Shown here: one piece after another, positions 38,699 to 62,714 of the stretch
How the letters are laid out: the number at the start of each line of letters is the position of its first letter
How positions within the stretch are numbered: position 1 is the first letter of the stretch
IMG/VR virus record: IMGVR_UViG_3300041411_000027
Span: 1-63,282 of that record
Length of the DNA: 63,282 nt
Source of the DNA: a virus
Direction: 5' to 3' (one strand)
Translations under genes and position numbers: made by a program
The notes under the pieces: model-generated
Seen by the model: only the letters and a program-made list of their open reading frames with translations
Database searches by the model: none
Told to the model about the DNA's origin: nothing

Positions 38699-38726
38699 TT
38701 GACATGGTGAACCAGCCTGCTAATCT
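38699..38726 (+). promoter_or_regulatory. Promoter of the DGQHR gene
   Basis: TTGACA (38699-38704), 16-base spacer, TAATCT (38721-38726). The leader has a hairpin (CAAGC-aa-GGGG ... CCCC-a-GCTTG, 38733-38764) and then the parS-like palindrome. Confidence 0.75.
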
Positions 38727-38767
38727 CCTAATCAAGCAAGGGGAATACACAACACCCCAGCTTGAAA

Positions 38768-38787
38768 GATGTTCCACGTGGAACATC
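38768..38787. promoter_or_regulatory. parS-like 20 bp palindrome
   Basis: GATGTTCCACGTGGAACATC is a perfect palindrome. Its inner 16 bases, TGTTCCACGTGGAACA, are the bacterial parS centromere sequence in the form common in pseudomonads. It lies between the promoter and the start codon of the DGQHR gene, where a bound ParB-like protein would block or spread over the gene. Confidence 0.8.
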
Positions 38788-38811
38788 GTAACCTCTAGGA
38801 GAAACATCATC

Positions 38812-40269
38812 ATGTTTATGCATAATGAATCGCTTCCTACTCCGCTCGCTTCGATTGACTCGCTGTTGAAAGAAGCTGATTCTCAAGTCAGACCTGAAAA
38901 GGTGTTCATTGGTCACAATCTGGGGCATCGCACCTTTATCGCCCTGATCCCAATGAAAGACTTCTACGCCATGAGCAAGGTGGCAAACGAGCGCCAGCCT
39001 GATGGCTCGCCAGCCACACAACGCCCACTCAATGAGGCGCACGCTACCGGGTTGGCAAAATACATCCTTCGCGGCATGATTGCAGCGGCTATCGAATACC
39101 GCCGCAACTTCAATAAGCCAGAGTCGCTGGCATTGCATGAGCTTCAAAGGGTTATGGGGCCACAAACCTACATGAGTTTGCAGCCTATCGTTTGCAACCT
39201 TCGCACCGTTGCCCCCGGTGGCGCTGGCATCGAAGGAAAGCGGATGGAAGCCGACGGTGAGACGGCGTGCTTTAAAGTGTTCCTTGGTCAGCGTGACATG
39301 CTGTATGTGATCGATGGTCAGCACCGTCGTTATGCGATGGATTTGGTTTTCGAATTCCTGACTGAAATCAGGCTCAATCGGAAATATCCACGCAAGCCAA
39401 AGCTGTTCGAAGGCAACTTCAAGGAACCAATCCCTACTGAAGTGCTGGCGGCATGGGACGAATGCGACGAAGTTGCACGGGGCTTTAGCAAGATCGCTGT
39501 AGAGATTCACCTAGGGCTTGGCGTTCGGGAAGAACAGCAATTGTTCCACGACCTGAACAACCTTGCTAAAAAGGTGGAGCGTTCGCTGGCTCTGAAGTTT
39601 GACAGCGCCAACCCTGTTAACCAGTTCATCCAGAACGAACTACTGCCTCACATTCTGGACTGGGACGATGTAACAGACGGTGACCAGTCCAACTGGAACA
39701 AGGACACAGGCCGCTGGACATTCCGCGACCTTGCAGCGACTAACGCTATCCTGTTCCTGAACAAAACGAGCATTGCCAGTGCCACGCCAGCCGATGTAGA
39801 AGAAAAATATGCTACAGCTTGCAGAGCATGGGGCGCCATCGCTAACGTTCCGGGCTTTGGTAAGCCGGGGGCAAAAGCTTACACGGTGCTGGCACAGCCT
39901 GTAGTCGTCAAAGCTGTCGCTAAACTGGTATACGATCTGGGGTTTGGTCGTCGTCGTGACGCTACAGCCGGTGAAGACCTTGAAAGGCTTCTGCAAGGCT
40001 TGTCACAAGTCAACTTCAGCCACACTAACCCTGTATGGCGGTTTTATGAACTGACTGAACAGGACCGCATCAAGCAAAAGCTTAACGGCTTGCGTGACTA
40101 TCTGCCTGACGGCGGTGACACTAACCGGAACATTGGGACGTTCGATAGCCAGAACAAATGGATGAAGTTTGGCACCCGCCATAACGACATTTACCCAATC
40201 ATCGGTGACATGATTCGCTGGATGTTGAAACTCCCAAGCCGTACCGCTGAAAAGCCCGACGCGGCCTAA
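38812..40269 (+). CDS. DGQHR-domain protein (DndB/ParB-like superfamily)
   Basis: 485 residues from the ATG at 38812 (16 bases after AGGAG). V-I-D-G-Q-H-R-R-Y-A at 166-175 is the DGQHR motif of DndB-type proteins, which is similar to the nucleotide-binding motif of ParB/sulfiredoxin folds. L-F-H-D-L-N-N (about 245) is another DndB-like feature. DndB regulates phosphorothioate modification in bacteria; no other dnd gene is visible here. Own promoter, terminators on both sides and a parS-like site in its leader make a DNA-binding or clamp-type role attractive but unproven. Confidence 0.75.
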   Translation: MFMHNESLPTPLASIDSLLKEADSQVRPEKVFIGHNLGHRTFIALIPMKDFYAMSKVANERQPDGSPATQRPLNEAHATGLAKYILRGMIAAAIEYRRNFNKPESLALHELQRVMGPQTYMSLQPIVCNLRTVAPGGAGIEGKRMEADGETACFKVFLGQRDMLYVIDGQHRRYAMDLVFEFLTEIRLNRKYPRKPKLFEGNFKEPIPTEVLAAWDECDEVARGFSKIAVEIHLGLGVREEQQLFHDLNNLAKKVERSLALKFDSANPVNQFIQNELLPHILDWDDVTDGDQSNWNKDTGRWTFRDLAATNAILFLNKTSIASATPADVEEKYATACRAWGAIANVPGFGKPGAKAYTVLAQPVVVKAVAKLVYDLGFGRRRDATAGEDLERLLQGLSQVNFSHTNPVWRFYELTEQDRIKQKLNGLRDYLPDGGDTNRNIGTFDSQNKWMKFGTRHNDIYPIIGDMIRWMLKLPSRTAEKPDAA

Positions 40270-49027: not shown

Positions 49028-49714
49028 TTAGGCAGTTTCTTTGACTGCAAGATTCACTTGCTTATTGGCGAATGCAGCACCTACAACGATCAGACCACCA
49101 ACAACCTTAGCCAGCAAGTGGTTCACTTCGCCAACATGTTGTACGAAGAATGGATCAGAGATCAGCATTTCAGCACCAACCACACCCAACATTGCAGCAC
49201 CGATCCAGATGATCACTTTGTACTTGTCCATCAGACCAGACAGGTACTTCGCACCGTAGACGATAACTGGAATGCTCAGAGCGATACCAGCGATTGCGTA
49301 GAGAGTCGAGTGCTCAGTACCAGAAGCAGCACCAGCTACAGCCATTACGTTATCCAGCGAGAGCATGAAGTCAGCTACGATGATGGTCCAAACAGCGCCC
49401 CAGATAGTGTCTTTCTGTGCAACTTCATGTGGTTCATCGTGCCCAATCAGCAGAGAGTAACCAATCCAGACAAGGTACAGACCAGCTACCAGCTTCAGGA
49501 ACGGAACGCCCAAGAGGAAGGTTGCAAAGACCAGCAGGATGGCTCGGAGTGCGATGGCACCAGCAGTACCCAGAAGGATTGCCTTACCTCGAACACTTAC
49601 AGCCAGTGTCGCACATGCCAGAGCAATTACGATGGCGTTATCAAGGCCGAGAAGCAGGTCGATCATCACGATCTTGAAGATTGCAGCCCAGTCCAACATT
49701 GCGAAAAATTCCAT
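49028..49714 (-). CDS. terC: TerC-family integral membrane protein
   Basis: 228 residues with about seven membrane helices. L-L-G-L-D-N-A-I-V-I-A-L and S-L-D-N-V-M-A-V-A-G are the duplicated D-N motifs of TerC, related to metal transporters. In bacteria TerC forms a membrane complex with TerB and TerD proteins and may export metal ions. Confidence 0.9.
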   Translation of the reverse strand: MEFFAMLDWAAIFKIVMIDLLLGLDNAIVIALACATLAVSVRGKAILLGTAGAIALRAILLVFATFLLGVPFLKLVAGLYLVWIGYSLLIGHDEPHEVAQKDTIWGAVWTIIVADFMLSLDNVMAVAGAASGTEHSTLYAIAGIALSIPVIVYGAKYLSGLMDKYKVIIWIGAAMLGVVGAEMLISDPFFVQHVGEVNHLLAKVVGGLIVVGAAFANKQVNLAVKETA

Positions 49715-49743
49715 TGTGTTCTCCTTTGTGTTTGTGTGGGGCC

Positions 49744-49772
49744 ATCTTACTGACTGGCCCTTGTGTTGTCAA
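49744..49772 (-). promoter_or_regulatory. Leftward promoter with hairpin around the -10
   Basis: Minus strand: TTGACA (plus 49767-49772), 17-base spacer, TAAGAT (plus 49744-49749). GGGCCA (49739-49744) and TGGCCC (49755-49760) pair perfectly around the -10. Drives terC and terD-like genes. Confidence 0.85.
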
Positions 49773-49775
49773 CAA

Positions 49776-50417
49776 TTATTTAGTTGCGAAAGCCTTGAAC
49801 TCTTCGTTCAGCAACAGTTCGTAGAAGCGGTTCTGATCTACAGCCTTCGGATTCGGGATGTACAGCACTTCAACAGTGTCGTACTTATCACCGATCATGT
49901 CCAGATAACGCTTGTTGCAGCCGTTGCCGATTGCCACAATCTGTACAAAGGTGTTTTCCAGCGAGTCGAGCTGAGCTTCAAACTCACGCTTATCGTTGTT
50001 CTCGCCGTCAGTGATCAGTGCGAGATAGGTTGGGGTTGCCTTCTTACCGAAGCCGAAGAAACCACCCTTATTGCTACCCTTCAGTGCCTTGATTGCGTCT
50101 GCGAAGTTAGTACCACCGCCAGCGGTGATGCCTTCACGACGGATGTAGGTGCCAGCGTCTGCTTCTACCATATCACGCTCACGCTTGAAGCTGGTGTTGA
50201 AGAAGCCGATTTCCATCTTACCGTCATCATCAAACTTCATTGCAGCAGCGAGGAACAGGTCGAGGGTGTCTTGTACCCAACCACAACGGAACTCATCGTC
50301 CATCGAACCAGATTTGTCAACCGCCAGCTTCACAGCCATAGTGATTGGTGTGAAGATGTTCGCTTTAACGAGATTCAGTTCCAGCGATTTAGTCAGGTCT
50401 AACATTGCCATACCCAT
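49776..50417 (-). CDS. TerF-like von Willebrand factor A protein
   Basis: 213 residues behind GAAGGAGG. D-K-S-G-S-M (34-39) is a MIDAS metal site, with G-G-G-T-N (Thr) and I-T-D-G (Asp) completing it: the vWA domain of TerF/TerY-type proteins in Ter systems. Likely assembles with TerD at the membrane. Confidence 0.85.
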   Translation of the reverse strand: MGMAMLDLTKSLELNLVKANIFTPITMAVKLAVDKSGSMDDEFRCGWVQDTLDLFLAAAMKFDDDGKMEIGFFNTSFKRERDMVEADAGTYIRREGITAGGGTNFADAIKALKGSNKGGFFGFGKKATPTYLALITDGENNDKREFEAQLDSLENTFVQIVAIGNGCNKRYLDMIGDKYDTVEVLYIPNPKAVDQNRFYELLLNEEFKAFATK

Positions 50418-50453
50418 ATATCCTCCTTCAGATTAGTTTGTTTGTTGGTGCCA

Positions 50454-50482
50454 AGTGTATCTAGATCACCAATCAATGTCAA
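50454..50482 (-). promoter_or_regulatory. Leftward promoter with hairpin around the -10
   Basis: Minus strand: TTGACA (plus 50477-50482), 17-base spacer, TACACT (plus 50454-50459). TTGGTG (50445-50450) and CACCAA (50467-50472) pair across it. Drives the TerF-like gene. Confidence 0.75.
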
Positions 50483-50849
50483 TAGTGTATTTGCCGGCTG
50501 GGATCAAACCCTTTTCGTACAAATCATTTGCAACCATTTCAACGCTTGGATAGAAGTTGCGACCCCAGAATAGATCAAGGAAGTTGCTGTAACTCGGCGT
50601 ACCGTGCCACTCCTTTGGGTCACGTGCAAGCCAAGCCGCAAAGCTTACACCCATTTCGCTACCGTTAATCATTTCGGGAACAGAATCATTCTCAAAATCA
50701 TACCCATCTGTAGGAATCTCGATCTTTACCCGTTGGCGTTCCTTGCAACCGTCTTGCTGTTGGAAGTCATATGGTCGTCCGTAGGTCTTCTCGACCAGAG
50801 CATCCCAGTCGCTTACATCAATCACTTGTTCGGTTACAGTGCGAATCAT
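50466..50849 (-). CDS. Hypothetical 127-residue acidic protein
   Basis: Between the TelA-like and TerF-like genes. Acidic, Trp-rich C-terminal half (F-W-G-R-N-F-Y-P-S-V-E). May belong to the Ter system by position. The promoter for the next gene overlaps its end. Confidence 0.65.
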   Translation of the reverse strand: MIRTVTEQVIDVSDWDALVEKTYGRPYDFQQQDGCKERQRVKIEIPTDGYDFENDSVPEMINGSEMGVSFAAWLARDPKEWHGTPSYSNFLDLFWGRNFYPSVEMVANDLYEKGLIPAGKYTIDIDW

Positions 50850-50850
50850 A

Positions 50851-51954
50851 TCAAATCCTCCCTTGTTGGGTCAGTGCTGTCAACAGCGATTTCTGACCTT
50901 GTACTAGTTCTACTGCATCGGCAGAGCGTTGGTCACGACCAGCAGCTTCTACACGATTTACTTCTGTAACGGTTTCCAGCATCTTGGCACGCAGAGTCTG
51001 AAGAGTCTGTGTGGTGATCACTGGTGTGTTCATCGCTGTAGCGCTTGCGATGGCAGCCATTTTCGCTCCTTCTGCACCCTGTGTCAAGGTCTTTGTTGCC
51101 AAATTCCTGACCTCACTGGTCAGAGATACACTCTTTTGCACGTCCAGTGTTTGCAGGAACATTGCGAACTCCATCTTGATGATAGGGATCGTCTGAGTGA
51201 TCACATCCTTGAGAGTCGAGATAGTAGCACGACTTGCATCCTGTTGCGAGCGAATCTTTGGACTATTGATTTCAGTCATCGCTTTCAAACGACGAAGGTT
51301 ATCAGCCTTCATGTCTAAACGATTCACCTTTGTCTGTGCGTCACGCAGCAATTGAGACTGCATGGCAGCTTCAGGGTGATTAAGGTCAATCTCAGGCCAC
51401 GATGCGATCTGCTGCTCGGCATACGCCTTCAGACGTTCCACTTCCGTGATTTCAGTCACAATCTTCTTATAGTGAGCGAAGTTTTCATTGTACAGCATAT
51501 CCAAATCCACAACCCAAGCACTTTGCACGGTAATGTGAGCACTGATCTTCTCTTCCAGACCTTGGAACACTTGCTGGGCTGTGTTCAGCCGAAGCATGAG
51601 CCTGCCCTTAACGTCAGTGAACTTGTTCTGGAACCAACCTACAAGGCCATCCCTCTGAATAGAAGCAGGGTCCAGCTTGTTGGCTTCGTTGCTGATCTGA
51701 GTCAGGATTGCACCCAGTTCATCGAACTTACCGACAGCCATCTTGTCAATAATCTTCTGAGTAGTTTGACCAATCTCACGGGAGACGGACTCACCAATCT
51801 TGTCAATGTCAGCATCGGAGATAACCTTGAGCTGCATCATGTTCGAAGGCTTGGCTACGGCCACCTCTTGAAACGGACTGCGTACAGGGACACCCATACG
51901 GTCAGCAGCGATCACAGGTTTCTCAGCCACGCCTGCTCGATTGAATACGCTCAT
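50851..51954 (-). CDS. TelA/KlaA-family toxic-anion resistance protein
   Basis: 367 residues, long helical protein. G-W-F-Q-N-K-F-T-D-V-K, Y-N-E-N-F-A-H-Y-K and the C-terminal T-L-D-V-Q-K-S-V, Q-T-L-Q-T-L-R-A-K-M-L-E-T match TelA. TelA proteins co-occur with Ter genes and are soluble coiled-coil proteins of unclear mechanism. Confidence 0.85.
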   Translation of the reverse strand: MSVFNRAGVAEKPVIAADRMGVPVRSPFQEVAVAKPSNMMQLKVISDADIDKIGESVSREIGQTTQKIIDKMAVGKFDELGAILTQISNEANKLDPASIQRDGLVGWFQNKFTDVKGRLMLRLNTAQQVFQGLEEKISAHITVQSAWVVDLDMLYNENFAHYKKIVTEITEVERLKAYAEQQIASWPEIDLNHPEAAMQSQLLRDAQTKVNRLDMKADNLRRLKAMTEINSPKIRSQQDASRATISTLKDVITQTIPIIKMEFAMFLQTLDVQKSVSLTSEVRNLATKTLTQGAEGAKMAAIASATAMNTPVITTQTLQTLRAKMLETVTEVNRVEAAGRDQRSADAVELVQGQKSLLTALTQQGRI

Positions 51955-53033: not shown

Positions 53034-53603
53034 TCATTCTCCTATGAAAGTCTTCAATCTGTCAAGATGTTCTGGGATATACAGGTTAAATACCTCGATC
53101 CCCGATGTTTTGGCCAACTTGAAGGCTGTTGCCGTACCACCTTGTGGTACACCCTTCTTGTCAGTCTTGGCATAGCCTATCACGAATTTACTTGGAGTTG
53201 CAAGGTCTTTCCCTAAAACTTGGTAGCAATTACGTGCGTGCATCTTCTTGGCACCTTGTTTGCATGCCTCCCAGTTCGGATGGAGCAACGCAGCAATGAC
53301 AGTAGCAGTGAAATAGTTGGGCCAAGACTCAGGATTGATGTTGCACCCGTCATGACTGGACATTTCATGTCCTTCATATCCCCACCAAGGCACGTAGCAC
53401 TCGTAATCGTTTGCTGTGTAGTCGATACCCTTCTGCTGCCGATGGCCCCACCAACCCTCTTCAAAGGCTTGGTCAGCTCCTACAGCACCACCTGAGCGTA
53501 GACCCCATCCGAGGGTAGCCAACTCCGCAGCAGCGTCTGTCATGACTGCCTGAATGTCTTGTGGCGTTTCACGCGAGCCTATACCTGTGTACCACTTACT
53601 CAC
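53034..53603 (-). CDS. SLOG/Rossmann-like protein (YpsA/DprA-type)
   Basis: 189 residues, GTG start overlapping the previous stop. G-I-G-S-R-E-T-P-Q (7-15) and L-R-S-G-G-A-V-G-A-D-Q-A-F-E-E-G are the phosphate- and nucleotide-binding loops of SLOG-superfamily proteins; K-F-V-I-G-Y-A follows. SLOG domains bind or process nucleotides including NAD-derived signals. Near macro and NAMPT genes, so an ADP-ribose-related ligand is a fair guess. Confidence 0.75.
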   Translation of the reverse strand: MSKWYTGIGSRETPQDIQAVMTDAAAELATLGWGLRSGGAVGADQAFEEGWWGHRQQKGIDYTANDYECYVPWWGYEGHEMSSHDGCNINPESWPNYFTATVIAALLHPNWEACKQGAKKMHARNCYQVLGKDLATPSKFVIGYAKTDKKGVPQGGTATAFKLAKTSGIEVFNLYIPEHLDRLKTFIGE

Positions 53604-53752
53604 GGTCGTCCCTCCAACTTACGCCAAGCAGCGTCTGTTTTCTTCAATAGTTCTTCTAGCTCTTTGAACTTCCTTGCCTTGTAAAGCTCAAGAGCTTCAC
53701 TACCCGGTGCAAGCCAATGTCCCGGTTTGTATTCAACTGCGTCTCTGTACAT
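53600..53752 (-). CDS. 50-residue hypothetical protein
   Basis: ATG at 53752 behind GGAGAAC. Charged helical protein (Y-K-A-R-K-F-K-E-L-E-E-L-L-K-K-T) whose stop overlaps the GTG of the SLOG gene. Confidence 0.65.
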   Translation of the reverse strand: MYRDAVEYKPGHWLAPGSEALELYKARKFKELEELLKKTDAAWRKLEGRP

Positions 53753-53777
53753 AGTGTTCTCCTTTTCTGAAGACCAA

Positions 53778-53807
53778 AGAATACCCGCCGAAGCGGGTAT
53801 AAGTCAA
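53778..53807 (-). promoter_or_regulatory. Leftward promoter with hairpin filling its spacer
   Basis: Minus strand: TTGACT (plus 53802-53807), 18-base spacer, TATTCT (plus 53778-53783). ATACCCGC-cgaa-GCGGGTAT (53781-53800) covers the spacer; as RNA it may also end the operon to its right. Confidence 0.7.
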
Positions 53808-53810
53808 GCG

Positions 53811-53903
53811 TTATCTACGCCAGTGAATAACAATTAGTCCAGCCAATCCCACTACACCGAGGATGCCACCAACAATCACACCACCCAGAAAAGCCCAGAT
53901 CAT
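53811..53903 (-). CDS. 30-residue membrane peptide
   Basis: ATGA overlap with the upstream peptide gene. The product begins MIWAFLGGVIVGGILGVVGL: a Gly-rich membrane helix. Confidence 0.5.
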   Translation of the reverse strand: MIWAFLGGVIVGGILGVVGLAGLIVIHWRR

Positions 53904-53959
53904 GCGTAGCGACTCAATAGTAGGAAGATGATCAAGATCAGAAAGAATGCAGTAAGCAT
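53900..53959 (-). CDS. 19-residue hydrophobic peptide
   Basis: MLTAFFLILIIFLLLSRYA, starting in a TGATG overlap with the previous stop. Pure membrane segment; coupling on both sides supports translation. Confidence 0.4.
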   Translation of the reverse strand: MLTAFFLILIIFLLLSRYA

Positions 53960-54345
53960 CACATCACCTTCCGAAACAGGCCATAGGCGTTGGTGCCCAT
54001 ATTACCACGGGCGTGGTAACTAGTGGATTCTTCTTCTGCGTTGTAAACCCAGTGACCATCCTTCCCATTACCGGAGATTGAGAAAGGCAGATCACCATCG
54101 TAATTTTCTTCTTCAACGTTATCGATGGAGTAAACACCGGGCTCAACCAAAGCACCACCGTGATCTTTGAATGAGGTTTGCACATGGATGAAGTCACCTT
54201 CTTTCAGGGTACGCCAATCAACAGCGACACTATGTTCTGGTTGGCGAACTATAGCACCTTCAGTCAGGAAGGCAAGGTCATTGTGCAAGGTCAACAGCTC
54301 AGCCGAGAGTTCACCGATACGGGTAGTGATTTCTTTCAAGTTCAT
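53959..54345 (-). CDS. Hypothetical 128-residue protein
   Basis: Helical N-terminus (I-T-T-R-I-G-E-L-S-A-E-L-L), then a barrel-like domain (L-K-E-G-D-F-I-H-V). Acidic Glu-rich turns. Upstream of two tiny membrane peptides. Confidence 0.65.
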   Translation of the reverse strand: MNLKEITTRIGELSAELLTLHNDLAFLTEGAIVRQPEHSVAVDWRTLKEGDFIHVQTSFKDHGGALVEPGVYSIDNVEEENYDGDLPFSISGNGKDGHWVYNAEEESTSYHARGNMGTNAYGLFRKVM

Positions 54346-54354
54346 AATATTCTC

Positions 54355-54813
54355 CTATTTAACGTAAATGGTAACATCGATCCCAGCGAAATGCTTCACG
54401 ATCAGAGCTTCAACGTCAGCCCATTTCGCTCCACCCAAGCCAGCACCCAGTTTCGGGAAGCCTACACTTTTGTGCTCACCAGCATCCACGAATAGTCGCA
54501 TAGTTGCGAAGGCTTTGTCAAGGGCTTCTAAGCTGGTATAAACAACACCCTTCTCACGCCCGTAAAACTGTTGCCCGTACAGGTTGAAGATTGGGCCGTG
54601 CTCACACAACGTGAAGCTCAGAGAGCCCAGCTTATTGACATCACCTTTGAGGGTTTGACAGTCAGCTTCGTACACTTGAGGCCACTCAGCCCGTAGAGCC
54701 TTGGCTACGCCAGAGTTCATTGTGTTCTGGCAGTTGGCTTGATGCCCAATAGCTTCCACTTCACCAGCTTTGAAGCCTTCAATCAGACAGCCTTTCTTGG
54801 TAGTGATAGTCAT
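54355..54813 (-). CDS. Macro-domain protein (ADP-ribose binding)
   Basis: 152 residues. G-H-Q-A-N-C-Q-N-T-M-N-S-G-V-A-K-A-L and V-G-F-P-K-L-G-A-G-L-G-G-A-K-W are the two macro-domain loops that bind the distal and diphosphate parts of ADP-ribose. Such proteins bind or hydrolyse ADP-ribose derivatives. Two genes from NAMPT. Confidence 0.88.
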   Translation of the reverse strand: MTITTKKGCLIEGFKAGEVEAIGHQANCQNTMNSGVAKALRAEWPQVYEADCQTLKGDVNKLGSLSFTLCEHGPIFNLYGQQFYGREKGVVYTSLEALDKAFATMRLFVDAGEHKSVGFPKLGAGLGGAKWADVEALIVKHFAGIDVTIYVK

Positions 54814-55028
54814 ACGCGACCCACCGTCTTGACATCGAAAGTGTCAATCATAGTTTCAAATTCATGCAGCTTTGTGGTTCGCAGCGTCTTGACCTCAAGT
54901 ACAAGGTTCTGCCACGGCCACAGGTGACGTAGGGTCCAACCAGTGATCCTATGACCAGTGGTGGAATGATTCAGTTCGTAAGTGATGAAGTATTTACGTG
55001 CAAACAATGCTCTCAGAGCGTCTTTCAT
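54810..55028 (-). CDS. Hypothetical 72-residue protein
   Basis: ATGA overlap with the macro gene; behind AAGGAGG. Basic, aromatic (W-T-L-R-H-L-W-P-W-Q-N). No family recognised. Confidence 0.65.
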   Translation of the reverse strand: MKDALRALFARKYFITYELNHSTTGHRITGWTLRHLWPWQNLVLEVKTLRTTKLHEFETMIDTFDVKTVGRV

Positions 55029-55051
55029 TTTGAATCCTCCTTAGAAAAGAA

Positions 55052-55082
55052 AGCCCCACCGCATATAGTCAGTGGGGCTAGG
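55052..55082 (-). terminator. Terminator after the NAMPT gene
   Basis: AGCCCCAC (55052-55059) and GTGGGGCT (55072-55079); the minus-strand RNA continues TTCTTTTC. The next ribosome site is directly downstream. Confidence 0.8.
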
Positions 55083-55089
55083 GATTGGC

Positions 55090-56628
55090 TTACGCCAATC
55101 GTCCTTTGATGGTTTGCAGATCATCCAACCAGAAGCGACCATTCTCGAACAGCAGCTTCAACACACCACCACGTTCTTCTTCGAAGGTGCATTGGTCTTT
55201 GAGGACGTACTCGCCATCAATCAAGTCAACACGCAGCAAACCTTTAGCAGACTTCTTCAGACCGTCGCCAGTTGCTGGGTCTTTGTAAATCTCTACAAAT
55301 TCACCATTAACAGTGCAAGCAGTTGCCTTCACAGCGAAGCCGAAGGTGTCACGAGTGTTCATCTGGTAGGTGTAAGAACCAATACCAAACACTGCACAGC
55401 CAGAGCTGAAACCCAGTTCTTCCATTCGTTTCAGAATCGCTTCGAAACGTTGCAGGGTGATGCTGTCGCCGTAGATCAGACCAATGTGCGAATCCAGCAG
55501 TTTGTGACCAGTCTCAGTGATAGTACCACCGAAGGTTTCCCACAAGATTTGCAGAGAACCTTTGAACTCTGGACTGCCCGGTTCAGCGTCTGGATCACCA
55601 CAAATTACTTTCAGTGGATCCCCCGAATCAGGACGGATAACCAGCTTGCCGTCACGAGCCATGATGATGTCTTTCAGACGTGGCAATATTTTGGTCAGAA
55701 CACCCCAGTAATCGTAGGTGTCAGCTACATACGATGCAATGCCGGTTGGGACAATGCGAGTGATGTAGTCGTTCATGAAGTCAACTTCTGCTTCCAGTCG
55801 AGCGTCAAGATCACCTTCACGGATGTTAGCCAGAGCCATCTTCTGCTTGATACGAGCCATGCGGAACAAGATGTTGCTGGAGCTTACAGCGTGTTCAGTT
55901 GCAGCTACAGAGCAGCCAACCAACTCTTCGTCAGTATTCACACCGTAGTAATCTTCGAGGTAATCCAGCACTGCGAAAGTGTCAGTACCCGAGAAGAACA
56001 GGCTGTGACCAGATGCAGCACGAATCGCGTCTTCCAGACCAGACATACCACGCATCGAGAAGTCGTGGCACTGGAACTGAATGAGGTTCAGATCGAAGCC
56101 AGTCTTTTCAGCGTAATGGTTTGCCAGTTTACGATATTCACCAGCGATTGTTGCGTTGGTCGCTTGCTTCCAAGTCATGTTCGACATAATGGTTTCCAAG
56201 TAATTGGTCACCCAGAAGAACTCAGGGAAGGTGGACATAACAGTGAAGAGTGGAATCTTCATGTTGATGCGAGTGCCTTCTGGCATAGTCTTCACACGGA
56301 TAGGCAAGAAGCCCAGATCGTGCAGAGCAGCCATCCGAGCAGTGTTTACAACACCCTCACCCAAATAGGCGTTAACACGACGGGTGAAGCGAGCAATCAC
56401 TTTCTCTTTCGGTTGCGAGAAGAACGATTCGTTCCAGTATTCAACGATTTCTTGGAAGCCGCCTTGTGGGCCAAAGGCTACCAGCTTACCGTCGTAGAGC
56501 GAAGAGCCCTTGAACAGACGATTGGATCGTGGAGTGTTGTTCGAGTAAACCATTTCAGTACCAACTGGATATTGGTCTGCATGTCCAAGCTTATAGCCAT
56601 CAACTCCGTGGGGTGCGAAAACTTTCAT
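55090..56628 (-). CDS. Nicotinamide phosphoribosyltransferase (NAMPT/NadV-like)
   Basis: 512 residues from the ATG at 56628 behind GGAGG. K-L-G-H-A-D-Q-Y, F-H-D-F-S-M-R-G-M-S-G (with the His of the active site region), F-S-G-T-D-T and R-P-D-S-G-D-P (R-x-D-S-G binding PRPP) identify NAMPT. It makes NMN from nicotinamide and PRPP. Phage homologues include the Namat enzyme of NAD+ reconstitution pathway 1, which joins nicotinamide to ADP-ribose pyrophosphate; sequence alone does not separate them. Confidence 0.92.
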   Translation of the reverse strand: MKVFAPHGVDGYKLGHADQYPVGTEMVYSNNTPRSNRLFKGSSLYDGKLVAFGPQGGFQEIVEYWNESFFSQPKEKVIARFTRRVNAYLGEGVVNTARMAALHDLGFLPIRVKTMPEGTRINMKIPLFTVMSTFPEFFWVTNYLETIMSNMTWKQATNATIAGEYRKLANHYAEKTGFDLNLIQFQCHDFSMRGMSGLEDAIRAASGHSLFFSGTDTFAVLDYLEDYYGVNTDEELVGCSVAATEHAVSSSNILFRMARIKQKMALANIREGDLDARLEAEVDFMNDYITRIVPTGIASYVADTYDYWGVLTKILPRLKDIIMARDGKLVIRPDSGDPLKVICGDPDAEPGSPEFKGSLQILWETFGGTITETGHKLLDSHIGLIYGDSITLQRFEAILKRMEELGFSSGCAVFGIGSYTYQMNTRDTFGFAVKATACTVNGEFVEIYKDPATGDGLKKSAKGLLRVDLIDGEYVLKDQCTFEEERGGVLKLLFENGRFWLDDLQTIKGRLA

Positions 56629-57167
56629 TGTAAATCCTCCTTCTGAATTTGGAATGTGCAACCTCTATGGCTCTTTAGCTTACCACTGAGGCATCGTGAA
56701 ATCGCAGGTTGCTGATACCCTAACTCAACAAGCTCGTATACTGCCTTGTCTGTGTAGAGGATGTTACCGGCTTTATCAAATACTGTCAATAGATTTCTTG
56801 GCCTAAGTCCCGTTTCAAGTGCATGATTTGAATTCTCTGTGGGAGTTGCCCATTCAAGATTTAGTTCGTGGTTATTCTTCTTGTTCCCGTCTTTATGGTT
56901 GACATATGCCTTACCTTCAGGGTTCTCATGGAATGTTTCCGCCACCAATCTGTGAATATACTTATATTCAATCACACCATCCTTTGAAAGATGGACTTGC
57001 GAGTAACCGCTCGTATGGTCATTTGGAGACATGTAGCCACCCGTCCAGTCGACTTCATACGTGCCTCGGGATACGCGGCGAGGGCAGCTTCTAACCACCC
57101 CGCACTCGTTTATATCGTAAAGACCTTCGTAGCCTGCAATAGAGCGCCAAGTGTGTAGTTCACTCAT
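56625..57167 (-). CDS. NUMOD4/HNH homing endonuclease
   Basis: 180 residues. Starts with a NUMOD4 motif (W-R-S-I-A-G-Y-E-G-L-Y), then H-R-L-V-A-E-T-F, then V-N-H-K-D-G-N-K-K-N-N-H-E-L-N-L-E-W-A-T (HNH_3), and ends with a NUMOD1-like helix repeat. Its stop overlaps the NAMPT start. Confidence 0.9.
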   Translation of the reverse strand: MSELHTWRSIAGYEGLYDINECGVVRSCPRRVSRGTYEVDWTGGYMSPNDHTSGYSQVHLSKDGVIEYKYIHRLVAETFHENPEGKAYVNHKDGNKKNNHELNLEWATPTENSNHALETGLRPRNLLTVFDKAGNILYTDKAVYELVELGYQQPAISRCLSGKLKSHRGCTFQIQKEDLQ

Positions 57168-57763
57168 TGAGCTGGAATCAACTCAGGATTCACTTTGAAG
57201 AACGAATCAGATGGTTCAGCGATTACAGCCTCACCTTGCTCTTGATTCTCCAGAATATGCTGCTGGTCAGTAGCCATCTGGTCCTGTTTGTCGTCACGTT
57301 CCTGCTGAGCCTTGGCTTCATCGATCTTGATCTGCTCTTGTTGCAGCTTCAGAGCTTTCTCGCCTTCGTCTTCAGTCAGTGCGTCCATCAAGAGCATACC
57401 GCCAGCGGCACCTACCGCACCCCCAACGATGGAAGTACCCAGCCCAGAACCACCGCCCATACCACCAGAAGAATAACCACCGTTGTAGCCGCCACCCCGA
57501 TTATATCCACTGTTGCCTCCATAGTAGTTCTTTTGAATCACTGTAGTGTTCCGTGGAGCAGAACGGTAAACAGGGGTTTGTTTGGTCACTGTACGTGTTA
57601 CAACAGGACGGCTCACAACTGCTGGTCGAGACACTTTCGGAGCAGAGTAGCTCGGTTTGGAGAAGCTAGGCTTCGAACTCACCCGACTCTTAGCTTCAGC
57701 GAAGCCTACACCAATACACAAGATTGCACCAGCCATGATACCAGCAATAACTTTCTTGAACAT
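57164..57763 (-). CDS. Exported glycine-rich protein
   Basis: 199 residues. Signal peptide with A-E-A-K-like cleavage near 24; Ser/Pro/Val repeats; Tyr/Gly-rich stretch (Y-G-G-N-S-G-Y-N-R-G-G-G-Y-N-G-G-Y); a hydrophobic Gly-rich segment (about 107-130); then an acidic Gln-rich helix. Low-complexity envelope protein of unknown role. It overlaps the HNH gene by four bases. Confidence 0.75.
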   Translation of the reverse strand: MFKKVIAGIMAGAILCIGVGFAEAKSRVSSKPSFSKPSYSAPKVSRPAVVSRPVVTRTVTKQTPVYRSAPRNTTVIQKNYYGGNSGYNRGGGYNGGYSSGGMGGGSGLGTSIVGGAVGAAGGMLLMDALTEDEGEKALKLQQEQIKIDEAKAQQERDDKQDQMATDQQHILENQEQGEAVIAEPSDSFFKVNPELIPAQ

Positions 57764-57783
57764 TTGAATCCTCCTTTGTTAGA

Positions 57784-58215
57784 TTAGTCGCAACTTGAAG
57801 AGCTGGAGCTACTGGAACCGCTATCACTTGAAGAACTGCTGCTAGAGCAGGAAGAGTGACTGGAGTAGCTACTGCTGCTGTGTGAAGGAGTATACGCAGG
57901 AGCCGAATAGCTGTCAACAACATTATCAAAAGAATTATCGTGACGTTTCAACTCAGTGCTTCCGCCGCTTGAGCGTGGAGAAGCCTTGGTCGTTGGCTTT
58001 CCCGTGGTCACTGGAGCGGTACGGGAAGGATACGAGACACGAGCTGCCTGACGCATATATTCTTCCTGAACCACACGGTCACGGTCTTCCTGCATTCGAC
58101 GGATACGTTCGGCAGCATATTCTTTACGACGACGTGTCTCATCGCTTTCTCTCATGCAGTAGAAGCCGATCAGAATCACAAATCCTACAGCGAACAAACC
58201 AAGTACAATTTCCAT
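57784..58215 (-). CDS. Membrane-anchored protein with Ser-rich tail
   Basis: 143 residues from the ATG at 58215 (GGAG at correct spacing; the ATG at 58233 overlaps the previous gene). N-terminal membrane helix, Arg/Glu-rich linker, then a tail of serine runs ending in C-D. May work with the exported Gly-rich neighbour. Confidence 0.7.
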   Translation of the reverse strand: MEIVLGLFAVGFVILIGFYCMRESDETRRRKEYAAERIRRMQEDRDRVVQEEYMRQAARVSYPSRTAPVTTGKPTTKASPRSSGGSTELKRHDNSFDNVVDSYSAPAYTPSHSSSSYSSHSSCSSSSSSSDSGSSSSSSSSCD

Positions 58216-58216
58216 A

Positions 58217-59065
58217 TCAGTCTCCCAAGTCAATTACGGTGAGTGTGTCTTTAAATTCCGACTTCAAATCATTGCGGAACGAATTCGTGGTGTAGATGTG
58301 GTCATAGTGGTTCGCCACTACTTCAACGCCTTTCGAGAAGATACCGTGAGTGACAGCCAATTCCAGAGTCTTTGGGTTGCGAGCCTCCAGAAGCAGAGCC
58401 AGCTCAATGAACGTGCGTCCACCATCGCAGATATCGTCAAGAACCAACAGGTTCAAGTGGCTCATGTCGCCGGGACCGTCTACAGTCATGCCAATGATCT
58501 TGCCGTCAGCAAGGTTACGAGTCTTCGAGCAAGTGATCACACCAGCAGCACCCACTTTCTTGGCAAACTCTTCACACTTCTTTGTGGCGCCTTGGTCTGG
58601 TGCAACGATTGTCACATCATTGAACGACAGCTTGATGTCACCAAAGACGGAGTATTGGTCACGTACAGATACGTTATCAATGCAGGCCAGAGAGACAGCA
58701 CTGTGAGGGTCCGTCACTTGAACCATATCGTATTTCAGGCTATTGATCAGACGACCAAAGACCTTAATGCTAAGAGCTTCACCAGCGTTACACACACGAT
58801 CTTGACGTGCATACGGGATATACGGCAGGTCGAGCATGAACTTCGCCAGAGGGAACTCCATACGCAGTGCATCAGTTGCCATCAAAAGTGCCATCACATC
58901 GTCACTGTTCTGGAGTTGTGCATAGACGTAAACACGTTCTGCGTGCATACCGTCTACCTGAGATAGATTGTTGATGTCAACACCAACTTCACCACCGGGG
59001 AAGTTCCACTGACGGACGGTAGTAGTGATGTTAGAACCCAGTGCATCATTCGTATAAGTAATCAT
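58217..59065 (-). CDS. prs: Ribose-phosphate pyrophosphokinase (PRPP synthetase)
   Basis: 282 residues. L-P-Y-I-P-Y-A-R-Q-D-R (ATP site), D-P-H-S, V-A-P-D-Q-G-A and V-L-D-D-I-C-D-G-G-R-T (PRPP loop) are the Prs motifs; shorter than E. coli Prs (315). It makes PRPP for NAMPT. In NARP1 the Prs-like Adps instead makes ADP-ribose pyrophosphate. Presence with NAMPT in one leftward block suggests a joint NAD pathway. Confidence 0.92.
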   Translation of the reverse strand: MITYTNDALGSNITTTVRQWNFPGGEVGVDINNLSQVDGMHAERVYVYAQLQNSDDVMALLMATDALRMEFPLAKFMLDLPYIPYARQDRVCNAGEALSIKVFGRLINSLKYDMVQVTDPHSAVSLACIDNVSVRDQYSVFGDIKLSFNDVTIVAPDQGATKKCEEFAKKVGAAGVITCSKTRNLADGKIIGMTVDGPGDMSHLNLLVLDDICDGGRTFIELALLLEARNPKTLELAVTHGIFSKGVEVVANHYDHIYTTNSFRNDLKSEFKDTLTVIDLGD

Positions 59066-59272: not shown

Positions 59273-59674
59273 TCACAATTCCACTTGAAAGGATGCTCGC
59301 ATTCCTGCGAGAGCTTCATCTGGAACGTTGTGAATGTTCATCCCGCCTCGGCGGTTCTCAACTACGACGTAGGTTACACCATAATCGTACTCTTCTGCAA
59401 GCTTTACATAGTTTTTCATCGAACGCTTCGTTGGAAATACGTTCGATACAACGATGCTCTGAGTAACGCCCATTTTCGACTCTGTATCCCGCAAGCACTG
59501 ACGATAAGCATAAGCCATGCGAGATTCTGTCCAAAGGTACTCACCTTCAGGCGTGTACAGATACTTGTCATGCTCAAAGTGTGGTGCACGCAAGGCAGTT
59601 GCCAGAGTCGCAGCCAGTGTAGACTTCCCGCTGCCCGGTAACCCCCGGACCAGATATAGCATAGGCTTTTGCAT
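59273..59674 (-). CDS. Polynucleotide kinase-like P-loop protein
   Basis: 133 residues from the ATG at 59674 behind GGAGG. Walker A G-L-P-G-S-G-K-S-T (11-19), then E-H-D-K-Y (about 35) and a helical C-terminus ending V-E-N-R-R-G-G-M-N-I-H. The kinase part of T4 Pnkp is similar; no phosphatase domain. With RNA ligase it should repair cleaved tRNA ends. Its first 100 bases overlap the ligase gene in another frame. Confidence 0.82.
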   Translation of the reverse strand: MQKPMLYLVRGLPGSGKSTLAATLATALRAPHFEHDKYLYTPEGEYLWTESRMAYAYRQCLRDTESKMGVTQSIVVSNVFPTKRSMKNYVKLAEEYDYGVTYVVVENRRGGMNIHNVPDEALAGMRASFQVEL

Positions 59675-60611
59675 CACGTTCCCTCCAGAATTTTTCAATA
59701 ACATCTTTACGTTCCTGATCCCGCATGTGTGCGAAGTCATCGTATTCAACTTCAGAAACCAAGTAGTCAACCAGATCGTAGTATTCCTCATCAACACTTT
59801 GTTTGAAAAGGTGTGGGTCTTCGTACATCATCACGACTTTCTTAGAGCCCATACGCATGAGGAATTTCTTCGTCAAATAGTGAGGCGTCTTGATTTTCAT
59901 GACTGTCTCTCCTGTAAGGAGTCTTACCATGAAACCTTCGTGATCCACTGTACGAGACAGCTTCACAAGGTCGCCAAACTTCATACGAAACCACTCAGGC
60001 CGCTTCATTGCAGTATCTTTCGCAATAGCGTCAAGGTGCTGCTCAGTGAACATCAGGCCAGTCTCATGGTTACGACCACCAATCAGGTAGGCTCCGTGAG
60101 CCTCATCCACGATATGCGGATCAGAAGGGTGACAGATTTCAAACAACAAAGTGTTCACGTTGGTTGTCAGGTTCTGAACAATAGATTTGATAGTGGTATG
60201 CTCAAGATATTCTCGTGCGTACCCAACATAATCGCTATCCAGAGTACCAGTTGTAGCGATCAGCATTTCACCGTTGTGGGACGATACCGAAGCCATGAAG
60301 CCGTTCACCTTACGTGGAGCAATCACCATCGTTTCTGGGTCAAGCTTTGTACCGTTCTCGTGATGGTTGAACACCTTGGTGAAGGGCCAGATGACCACCT
60401 CACCAGTGGTGGTGTCGAACACAATGCCACGAGCTTCATTCAGCATTTTATCTTGGCCCCAGAGATTGTCGTAAAACACTTTCCCTTGGTATTTGATCAC
60501 ACAGAGACTCTGCTCTGGGTAATTCTTCACACGAACCAGCTTCTGTTCGATCAACGAATCGAAATCGCTCAGTTTGATTGCTGCTTTGTATGGTGCTGGT
60601 GAGCCGGACAT
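59574..60611 (-). CDS. RNA ligase (T4 Rnl1-like)
   Basis: 345 residues behind AAGGAG. Lys101 in A-P-R-K-V-N-G-F is the AMP-accepting motif I K-x-N-G; F-E-I-C (motif III), E-G-F-M-V-R (IV) and M-K-I-K-T-P-H-Y (V) follow. Rnl1 reseals tRNAs cut by host anticodon nucleases such as PrrC. Last 33 codons overlap the kinase. Confidence 0.9.
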   Translation of the reverse strand: MSGSPAPYKAAIKLSDFDSLIEQKLVRVKNYPEQSLCVIKYQGKVFYDNLWGQDKMLNEARGIVFDTTTGEVVIWPFTKVFNHHENGTKLDPETMVIAPRKVNGFMASVSSHNGEMLIATTGTLDSDYVGYAREYLEHTTIKSIVQNLTTNVNTLLFEICHPSDPHIVDEAHGAYLIGGRNHETGLMFTEQHLDAIAKDTAMKRPEWFRMKFGDLVKLSRTVDHEGFMVRLLTGETVMKIKTPHYLTKKFLMRMGSKKVVMMYEDPHLFKQSVDEEYYDLVDYLVSEVEYDDFAHMRDQERKDVIEKFWRERDAKAYAISGPGVTGQREVYTGCDSGNCLACTTL

Positions 60612-60625
60612 TGTGTTCTCCTTAA

Positions 60626-61039
60626 TTACAAAAGTTTCTCACGCATGATATCACGTGCCATTTCTGGTGTCACAAATTCTTTCAGAAGAGCTTTTACGTC
60701 CTTCATCAAGAACTCTCGTTCAATTCGAAGAGCAGATCCTACACGATCACTGATCACTGCGTCAAGTCGTTCTCTGACGATATCTTTAATCTGGGCATCT
60801 ACAGCAGCACCAACAGCTTTGGCTAGCTCTGGGGATTTCGCAGTGTAGGTAGGGTTCCAACCACCAGAAGACTGTACCATACCTTTTAGGCAGGAGGCAA
60901 TCTGTCCTTCGATCTTACCTTTAATCGAATCAGTTTGGATGTTGTTCATGACCTCACGGCCAATCTCAATTTCCAGTTCTGGATTATTAGCAATGAGGGC
61001 TCGAAGACCCTCCGTGTCAAGACGCATTTTGATAGTCAT
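60626..61039 (-). CDS. Hypothetical helical protein
   Basis: 137 residues. Charged helices with an Ala-rich middle; no named domain. Probably transcribed with the RNA ligase gene. Confidence 0.65.
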   Translation of the reverse strand: MTIKMRLDTEGLRALIANNPELEIEIGREVMNNIQTDSIKGKIEGQIASCLKGMVQSSGGWNPTYTAKSPELAKAVGAAVDAQIKDIVRERLDAVISDRVGSALRIEREFLMKDVKALLKEFVTPEMARDIMREKLL

Positions 61040-61052
61040 ATAGCCTCCTTAG

Positions 61053-61475
61053 TCAGTCTTTGTATTCGATGATTGTACAGATGCCAGCTTTATTGTCAAG
61101 CATTGCTTGTTTCAGTAGTGCAATTTTACGCTCTTTCCGTGCTTGCCAGAATGGAGTGAGCTTGTCGGCTACAATACAAGCTACAACAATACCAATAGCG
61201 CCCCACCCGATAACACCACCGACGATAAGCGGTTCCACTTCACCGACAGAGCCGAAGATAAGGAACGGCAAGTAGACCACTCCAACCACTGCCCAGATGA
61301 CAAAGATAACACCAAGCAGACTCATAAGCAATTTGAAGAAGCCGATAATGCCGCTGAAGATTGTGGTGCGAATGTATGAGCAAGTGGTGAAGATTTCATT
61401 ACGGGAGCGAGACTGAAAGCTCTCTTGCATCCAAGCATTGAAACGGTAGTGCCACGAAGATTTAGAAATTTGCAT
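61053..61475 (-). CDS. Membrane protein with SWHYRF start
   Basis: 140 residues. S-W-H-Y-R-F-N-A-W at the start is found in short phage membrane proteins; two or three membrane helices (about 38-75, 80-103), then a basic helix. Unknown role. Confidence 0.7.
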   Translation of the reverse strand: MQISKSSWHYRFNAWMQESFQSRSRNEIFTTCSYIRTTIFSGIIGFFKLLMSLLGVIFVIWAVVGVVYLPFLIFGSVGEVEPLIVGGVIGWGAIGIVVACIVADKLTPFWQARKERKIALLKQAMLDNKAGICTIIEYKD

Positions 61476-61485
61476 TTGATTCTCC

Positions 61486-61719
61486 TTATTGAGTGAGAGT
61501 TACAGAGCCTTCAAAGAAAGTAAACTCGCTTCTGATCCAAGAGTTCAAGCTTACACCAGTGTCGATCACAACACCAGTAAAATCTCCAGCTTGTTCACCC
61601 TCAAGATCAGTCACCATTACAATCATTGGTGGTTGCTCGTTGTGGATCATCAGAGTACCCACTTCCATGACTTGCGTCAAGCTATTTCGTGCATCGATTG
61701 AAACAAATGGTTTAGTCAT
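61486..61719 (-). CDS. Hypothetical 77-residue protein
   Basis: Beta-rich, small barrel-like (I-V-M-V-T-D-L-E-G, F-T-G-V-V-I-D-T-G). ATGA overlap with the upstream gene. Confidence 0.65.
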   Translation of the reverse strand: MTKPFVSIDARNSLTQVMEVGTLMIHNEQPPMIVMVTDLEGEQAGDFTGVVIDTGVSLNSWIRSEFTFFEGSVTLTQ

Positions 61720-61907
61720 GCGTTAAGCCTCTTTGTGTGGATGACGTAAGACGTGTCACCGTCCTCAATTTTCTCTGCCATTTCCGCTAGTGGGATGTCC
61801 TCACCGTGCATGCAGTATCGAACAGCGTCATCGTAGTTAGTGTAGACACCACAGACGCAATCCCAACCCATTTCAATGCTAGTTAAGACGTATACATAGT
61901 CACTCAT
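61716..61907 (-). CDS. Hypothetical 63-residue protein
   Basis: Y-V-Y-V-L-T-S-I-E-M-G-W-D-C-V-C-G-V-Y resembles small phage proteins with a ferredoxin-like fold (DUF7336-like). Overlaps the upstream gene by eight bases. Confidence 0.65.
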   Translation of the reverse strand: MSDYVYVLTSIEMGWDCVCGVYTNYDDAVRYCMHGEDIPLAEMAEKIEDGDTSYVIHTKRLNA

Positions 61908-62139
61908 TGCTGATCACCACTTCGCCTTCGAATGCCACGCAGAACTCTTTGATGATGTTGTCCTGATAACGGAAGGTTCCAACACCAGCGAGCCGCACAC
62001 CAGCGAAATGCTCAGGCTGATCGCCGGGGCCAATCACCAGATAGATGTTACCGTTATTCGCGGTGGACTTTACCAGCGACTTTGGTGCAAAGATATCGCG
62101 TGTTGGGGTTGTTGGTTTCTGGTTAACTATGATGCTCAT
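61900..62139 (-). CDS. Hypothetical 79-residue protein
   Basis: ATG at 62139 (ATGA overlap); the longer in-frame start is rejected because it lies inside the phosphoesterase gene. Beta-rich (I-Y-L-V-I-G-P-G-D). Confidence 0.65.
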   Translation of the reverse strand: MSIIVNQKPTTPTRDIFAPKSLVKSTANNGNIYLVIGPGDQPEHFAGVRLAGVGTFRYQDNIIKEFCVAFEGEVVISNE

Positions 62140-62714
62140 GCTCGTTCTCCTGTGTGATGATCCATTACGACGACTTGTTGTTTCGCCATGTGTTCGCAGA
62201 TTTCCTGCCATGTCCAGACTTGGAAGTCAGGATGGTTATCTATGCCAACGTCCAGACGCTTACCACGTGGTGGCAGAGAGCCGTGACAGTGACCATGCAG
62301 CATCCATGAGCCGTGGTGCGATCCGTTCCACACTTCCATTGGATAGTGGCACATTACAACAGGCTGACCTTGCACCTTGATTTCGTGGTAGTCCTTGACG
62401 AATGCCATTTGGATTGTACCAGAGTCTTCCAGCAGTTGCCAAGTACGTTTGTCGCAGTGGTTGCCACGTAGGAAGTGGATGTTACCATTCAACTCCTTGA
62501 TGATTTCGATCAAACGATCCAGTTGCTTCGGATAGATGAACGCGAAGTCACCCAGATGATAGACATCATCAACCAGACCAACCCGAGCGTTCCAACGAGC
62601 AATCAGCTCATCGGTGTTGTTCTCTTGCAGCCAAGGCCGACCAGAGTATTTCACGATGTTCTTGTGTTCGAAGTGGAAGTCCGAACAGAAAAACGGAGTT
62701 TCATTCTTTACCAT
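62136..62714 (-). CDS. Calcineurin-like metallophosphoesterase
   Basis: 192 residues. D-F-H-F (D-x-H), G-D-F-A (GD), G-N-H-C (GNH), H-Y-P and G-H-C-H are the five metal-binding motifs in order. Such phage enzymes can act on nucleotide, RNA-end or protein phosphates; the target here is unknown. Close to RNA repair genes, where end-phosphate removal would fit. Confidence 0.9.
   Translation of the reverse strand: MVKNETPFFCSDFHFEHKNIVKYSGRPWLQENNTDELIARWNARVGLVDDVYHLGDFAFIYPKQLDRLIEIIKELNGNIHFLRGNHCDKRTWQLLEDSGTIQMAFVKDYHEIKVQGQPVVMCHYPMEVWNGSHHGSWMLHGHCHGSLPPRGKRLDVGIDNHPDFQVWTWQEICEHMAKQQVVVMDHHTGERA

Follow-up and report, generated by a model that had tools for sequence, protein, structure and literature searches.

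The NARP1 pathway described for phage SpbetaL1 and for E. coli phages such as Bas63 consists of two genes, encoding Adps (ADP-ribose pyrophosphate synthetase), a homologue of the phosphoribosyl pyrophosphate (PRPP) synthetase Prs, and Namat, a homologue of the nicotinamide phosphoribosyltransferase NAMPT. In mycobacteriophage DyoEdafos, the NARP1 operon also encodes RyDEP, a RyR-domain glycosidase that linearises two forms of cyclic ADP-ribose (cADPR), 2'cADPR and 3'cADPR, and whose product is turned into nicotinamide adenine dinucleotide (NAD+) by Adps and Namat (PMC13232231). In the Pakpunavirus Adele, a Poa1p-like macro-domain gene lies downstream of NARP1, and its authors suggest release of ADP-ribose for NARP1 (PMC12846349). 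Phage macro and SLOG domains have also been proposed to counter soluble ADP-ribose derivatives (Iyer et al. 2022, PMC9503650). Here, we compare these systems with a locus in a 63,282-bp IMG/VR virus record (IMGVR_UViG_3300041411_000027; genome G000), the whole of which is called the window below. The locus encodes Prs, NAMPT, macro-domain, and SLOG-domain proteins. We give a probability of about 0.7 to the overall reading that it holds a NARP1 core with the macro protein as a recurrent accessory and the SLOG protein as a neighbour.

The window represents a fragment of a phage genome akin to those of Pakpunavirus-type Pseudomonas phages (UAVern, ventosus, PAK_P1). The closest proteins to its NAMPT, macro, and SLOG products come from Pseudomonas phages UAVern, ventosus, phiK7A1, and Pakpunavirus PAK_P1 (~93-102 kb), and, of the relatives found, IMG/VR locus L005, on a record of 98,292 bp, is the best, with 87% identity in Namat and 88% in the macro protein. 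The four genes lie on the minus strand where the initial annotation had placed them, as confirmed by open reading frame (ORF), Pfam, and PHROG matches. The features that concern the argument are, in the order of transcription:

58217 to 59065, minus strand: predicted Adps-type Prs homologue (ADP-ribose pyrophosphate synthetase), 282 aa; phrog_619, E 6e-88; PRPP synthetase (PRPS) fold family in the PDB.
55090 to 56628, minus strand: predicted Namat-type NAMPT homologue, 512 aa; phrog_448, E 1e-178; best PDB sequences 9w5x and 9w5w (Namat), E 2.5e-132.
55052 to 55079, minus strand: terminator-like hairpin with a 10-bp stem and a T-rich tail, directly after Namat.
54810 to 55028, minus strand: 72-aa ORF of unknown function, upstream of the macro gene and overlapping its start; without counterpart in L005.
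54355 to 54813, minus strand: macro-domain protein, 152 aa, with a Poa1p/TARG1-like fold; Pfam Macro, E 1e-7 (above the cut-off); phrog_335, E 4e-47.
53781 to 53800, minus strand: terminator-like hairpin separating the macro and SLOG units.
53034 to 53603, minus strand: SLOG (YspA/DprA-like) protein, 189 aa, with a GTG start overlapping the upstream ORF; phrog_768, E 3e-64.

The Prs and NAMPT homologues are encoded together in the window, UAVern, PAK_P1, and L005, and the order Adps-Namat-macro-SLOG recurs in UAVern and PAK_P1; the four genes are therefore no chance cluster of one contig. L005 keeps Adps-Namat-macro.

We considered first whether the NAMPT homologue is a Namat. In the structure of SpbetaL1 Namat, selectivity is attributed to a clamp, made of the helix motif GSxPhixPhixPhiTRD and the loop residue Arg40, both of which stack on the adenine (PMC12774641). 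When the window protein is aligned to 9w5x (E 2.5e-132), the stretch GSYTYQMNTRD at residues 417-427 fits the helix motif, the first clamp aromatic is kept as Tyr419, Arg37 falls at the position of Arg40, and the nicotinamide and ribose-phosphate contacts are conserved. Residues Phe189, Arg192, Asp215, Arg306, and Asp308 of the SpbetaL1 core correspond to Phe190, Arg193, Asp216, Arg332, and Asp334 of the window protein, the catalytic histidine being His246; every core residue named in PMC12774641 is kept except Ala362, which is Ser. Ordinary NAMPT-type phage enzymes in the same sample mostly have GG(K/G)LLQ...RD at the place of the clamp helix. The window carries neither this NAMPT-type helix nor the PRPS loop DDxxDTAGT, which are the canonical markers of NadV/PRPS salvage. 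For Namat, the most plausible start codon is the ATG at 56628, downstream of an AGGAGG box. Two further observations concern Namat genes across phages. An insertion after the VICG motif varies greatly in length; a variable insertion of ~80 aa is present there in L005 (9941-11755), UAVern, and others, and the window protein lacks it. The Namat matches in L128 (G052:98714-100429) and L133 (G053) contain one in-frame TAA, which may reflect stop-codon recoding, a sequencing error, gene disruption, or a match that extends beyond the end of the gene.

For the partner enzyme, the authors of PMC12774641 regard the structure of Adps as unresolved and its selectivity as obscure. We rely on a loop marker that is proposed in the present analysis and is not taken from the literature. 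The window Prs homologue has the loop DDICDGGRTF at residues 210-219, and its LDDICDGGRTF aligns with VDDIISTGGTM of archaeal PRPS. Among 74 loci having both genes, the loop DD[ILMV]xxG[GA]x[TS]F occurs in all 60 Prs proteins with a Namat-type partner, while the 14 with a NAMPT-type partner all have DDMVD(T/S)(A/G)GTL and none (0/14) has the Adps-type loop. This segregation remains after clustering at 70% identity (29 versus 3 clusters; Fisher P = 2e-4) and at 50% identity (P = 0.006), in clusters partly related by descent and collected with a search profile seeded from Namat-linked sequences. The marker places the window Prs homologue with Adps, and loops of the DDICDGGRTF type may be linked to ADP-ribose binding.

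Because the Namat signature and the Adps-type loop occur together, the locus is, on the evidence of residues, almost certainly NARP1 and not ordinary NAD salvage. The proposal of the initial annotation that a NAMPT plus a Prs homologue gives the make-up of NARP1 is thus borne out at the residue level by the clamp helix, Arg37, the catalytic core, and the Adps-type loop. Adps would add pyrophosphate to the free 1''-hydroxyl of ADP-ribose, Namat would join the product to nicotinamide to give NAD+, and, as we infer, the phage would thereby restore NAD+ once an NADase defence of the host has fired. Like the NARP1 systems of SpbetaL1 and Bas63, that of the window has the two genes, the Namat clamp-helix motif, the clamp Arg, and the catalytic core. 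It differs from them in having Met in place of Tyr at the second clamp aromatic, in the genes (including one for a homing endonuclease) between Adps and Namat, and in the accompanying macro gene.

The macro gene is a recurrent accessory of NARP1. It adjoins NARP1 in at least six phage lineages (the Pseudomonas lineage, L058/59, L028, L008, L017, and the Vibrio phages Pontus and KIT04), in all cases on the same strand as NARP1. In Pontus and KIT04 (Demerecviridae), it lies exactly between Adps and Namat, and its start overlaps the end of Adps. Among IMG/VR loci with a Namat-type enzyme, the order is Adps-Namat-macro in the window group, L056, and L008, macro-Adps-Namat in L058/59 and L076, and Adps-macro-Namat in L017/18/20, L028, and L074. 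The macro gene is found within 2-3 kb of Namat in 5 to 8 lineages, compared with 0.7 to 1.3 expected, corresponding to a chance P between 1.5e-6 and 1.4e-3 for different ways of merging the lineages. This statistic takes one representative per lineage and Namat-motif lineages only, counts in nine records with a distant macro gene, and has an approximate effect size, the sampling having been seeded from relatives of the window proteins; whole-record searches for distant gene pairs covered 50 loci each. The association of the macro gene with NARP1 put forward in the initial annotation is thus strengthened by its recurrence in unrelated phages, although the idea itself had already been published (PMC9503650, PMC12846349). 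Adele resembles the window in its NARP1 with a downstream macro gene, in its Poa1p-like residues (His, Asn, and Thr for Ser30), and in its adjoining RNA-repair genes; the window represents a different phage lineage, and the association in Adele is described for one phage only, with no discussion of SLOG in the section on it. Ordinary-NAMPT phages often have a macro gene nearby too: in L065, L069, L080, L088, L090, L095, L100, L114, and L116, genes for an ordinary NAMPT-type enzyme, a macro protein, and a canonical PRPS-type protein lie within ~12 kb. The macro protein may thus be a partner of nicotinamide salvage more widely.

The AlphaFold2 model of the macro protein (predicted local distance difference test [pLDDT] 94.8) has as its best solved folds in Foldseek TARG1, the DarG macro domain, and Poa1p (E 4.6e-11 to Poa1p). 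With these proteins it shares the macro fold, at ~20% sequence identity, and the Poa1p-type His and Asn. The catalytic His23 and Asn26 of Poa1p correspond to His24 and Asn27, and Ser30 probably to Thr31, as in Adele; His24, Asn27, Gly35, and Gln81 are invariant in NARP1-linked copies. At the aligned places of the catalytic Lys and Asp of TARG1, the window protein has Gln81 and Gly127. Because of these replacements, TARG1/DarG chemistry appears unlikely from the alignment. Instead, the protein would most likely bind 1''-blocked ADP-ribose derivatives (e.g., ADP-ribose-1''-phosphate, O-acyl-ADP-ribose, His-ADPR) and would remove the blocking group, so that a toxic or signalling metabolite would be disarmed and free ADP-ribose released for Adps. 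Since Adps needs a free 1''-hydroxyl, a 1''-acting hydrolase would feed it. That the macro protein frees 1''-blocked ADP-ribose for Adps is the reading we prefer, by analogy with RyDEP: in DyoEdafos, a third gene acts on an ADP-ribose derivative and feeds free ADP-ribose to Adps, and we propose a counterpart in the window, where the third gene encodes a macro domain and not a RyR-domain glycosidase. The RyR domain (PF02026) gave no match in 12 records, but the control likewise gave no match. More tentatively, the macro protein could be a general third NARP1 enzyme in several phage families, hydrolysing immune metabolites in which ADP-ribose is blocked at 1'' (for instance, His-ADPR of type II Thoeris or the ADP-ribose-1''-phosphate that RES-type toxins make) and passing free ADP-ribose to Adps. 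Alongside RyDEP, it would then represent a second type of “signal-to-NAD+” recycling enzyme.

Several observations weigh against the overall reading. The second clamp aromatic, Tyr396 of SpbetaL1, is Met423 in the window, the sole deviation in the clamp. Most of the IMG/VR Namats sampled have Met or Cys there, and these residues are common in phages with the signature; single clamp mutants of SpbetaL1 Namat lose just 1.3- to 1.7-fold (PMC12774641). At least nine of the sampled records that have a high-scoring Namat carry the macro gene >20 kb away from it; the macro gene therefore also has NARP1-independent settings. Key macro residues are alike in NARP1-linked and unlinked copies, so there is no sequence mark of a NARP1-specific macro substrate, and a sub-signature specific to linked copies was sought and rejected at the catalytic positions examined. 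Moreover, because a terminator-like hairpin stands between Namat and the macro gene, the two may not share one transcript; its stem is identical in L005, and UAVern has a different terminator-like hairpin at the same place.

The same evidence bears on other explanations of the enzymes. The two homologues could serve ordinary nicotinamide salvage, in which Prs makes PRPP, NAMPT makes nicotinamide mononucleotide (NMN), and host or phage adenylyltransferases complete NAD+. They do come from the same superfamilies as the salvage enzymes, SpbetaL1 Namat keeps some PRPP-to-NMN activity in vitro (PMC12774641), and the window has Met at the clamp Tyr396 position, but the clamp helix and clamp Arg of Namat type, together with a partner loop seen in none of the 14 Prs proteins with NAMPT-type partners, make this account very unlikely. 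For the macro protein, the closest competitor is a sponge that would hold an ADP-ribose signal (His-ADPR of type II Thoeris, or cADPR) without cleavage. Type II Thoeris effectors have macro domains that bind His-ADPR (PMC12847820), the window protein lacks the TARG1 Lys and Asp, and the RyDEP homologues are an example of a single family with both enzymes and sponges; nevertheless, the window protein retains the Poa1p-type His and Asn, and the repeated pairing with Adps and Namat would have no explanation if it were a sponge, so that we consider this account possible but doubtful. Less probable still is that the protein cleans up ADP-ribose-1''-phosphate, a by-product of RNA repair (the KptA-type reaction), from the adjacent block of Rnl1-type ligase, kinase, and phosphoesterase genes. 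Such a block adjoins NARP1 and macro genes in two unrelated families, Poa1p acts on this very compound, and a KptA-2H-Macro coupling is discussed by Iyer et al. (PMC9503650). However, KptA (PF01885) has no match in 12 records, namely, the window and 11 related or NARP1-macro records, whereas control genomes were positive, and the version with a phage-encoded KptA was rejected on this ground; the host may supply the enzyme, E. coli being positive in the control.

The role of the SLOG protein was weighed in the same way. Its AlphaFold2 model (pLDDT 94.2) is nearest to DprA and then to ThsA in Foldseek, with which it shares a SLOG-type fold, but the structural similarity is low (template modeling [TM] score ~0.4-0.5) and the window protein belongs to a stand-alone phage family, phrog_768; a search of solved structures with its sequence gave chance matches only. 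Under another proposal, SLOG would be a working fourth member of the pathway, sensing or cleaving cADPR for it. It lies close to NARP1 in most of the window phage group, its fold matches include the BcThsA SLOG domain bound to 3'cADPR (7uxs; E 3.7e-3, TM 0.45), and Iyer et al. proposed such a role for viral SLOG domains (PMC9503650). However, DprA is the better fold match, a terminator-like hairpin sets the gene apart, and in 61 of the 80 SLOG loci sampled, neither a macro nor a NARP1 gene lies within 10 kb. In Namat-carrying records outside the window phage group, SLOG is usually tens of kilobases away, and L005 keeps the flanking ORFs on both sides of the site, with SLOG alone missing there and from the whole 98,292-bp record. 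On the neighbourhood census and its absence from L005, the nearest relative, we thus rejected SLOG as a pathway part for the main reading and regard the proposal as improbable; the SLOG part of the initial annotation is not supported as far as membership of the pathway is concerned, and we would call the gene an accessory neighbour within the region. The one sampled arrangement that argues for a link is in L137 (6891-10555) and L138 (6883-10555), where Adps, Namat, and SLOG follow in direct succession; the DNA fetched for these loci contains no macro gene. The literature searched, restricted to open-licence papers and thus weak evidence on this point, contains no report of a phage SLOG sponge.

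With transcription, the whole block reads HD hydrolase, phosphoesterase, Rnl1-type RNA ligase, small kinase, Adps, two unknown ORFs, an HNH homing-endonuclease gene, Namat, a hairpin, the 72-aa ORF, macro, an unknown ORF, the second hairpin, a 50-aa ORF, and SLOG. The four named genes are thus loosely packed, with the homing-endonuclease gene, other unknown ORFs, and two terminator-like hairpins in between. The remaining neighbours are the following:

56625 to 57167, minus strand: NUMOD4 plus HNH_3 homing-endonuclease-like gene, directly upstream of Namat.
59273 to 59674, minus strand: small P-loop kinase/ATPase (polynucleotide-kinase-like), an RNA-repair neighbour; AAA_33, E 1e-8; phrog_2071, E 5e-45.
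59574 to 60611, minus strand: T4 Rnl1-type RNA ligase, an RNA-repair neighbour; RNA_lig_T4_1, E 3e-11; phrog_562, E 6e-60.
62136 to 62714, minus strand: calcineurin-like phosphoesterase, an RNA-repair/nucleotide neighbour; Metallophos_2, E 4e-6; phrog_547, E 7e-54.

The stop of the homing-endonuclease-like gene overlaps the Namat start codon (ATGA). Because L005 has a 53-aa ORF in its place, the gene looks recently gained or lost; UAVern and PAK_P1 have no homing-endonuclease gene annotated between Adps and Namat, and it is no part of the NARP1 pathway. The small kinase likely starts at an internal ATG, as judged from L005. RNA-repair genes (59273-62714, minus strand) adjoin NARP1 here and in the unrelated Vibrio phages Pontus and KIT04, and an RNA-ligase block is next to NARP1 in UAVern and PAK_P1 as well; this adjacency suggests a shared counter-defence region. 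On the other side of the four genes, TerC, vWA-TerF-like, and TelA genes (49028-51954, minus strand) form a tellurite-resistance-type block, with TelA near the locus in several relatives, and a DndB-like, DNA-sulfur-modification-associated protein is encoded at 38704-40269 on the plus strand (Pfam E 3e-29).

NARP1 itself, its pairing in a related phage with a macro gene of the Poa1p-like kind, and the idea that phage macro and SLOG domains counter soluble ADP-ribose derivatives are already published (PMC12774641, PMC12846349, PMC9503650); in the literature searched, we found neither a report that macro recurs with NARP1 in several lineages and gene orders nor the Adps loop marker. Together with the published Namat motif, this marker would offer a sequence-only way to separate NARP1 from ordinary NAD salvage in phages. 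NARP1 counters NAD+-depleting immunity broadly. Should a macro hydrolase be its repeated companion, phages would refill NAD+ and, beyond that, turn the blocked ADP-ribose signals or toxins of the host into raw material for NARP1.

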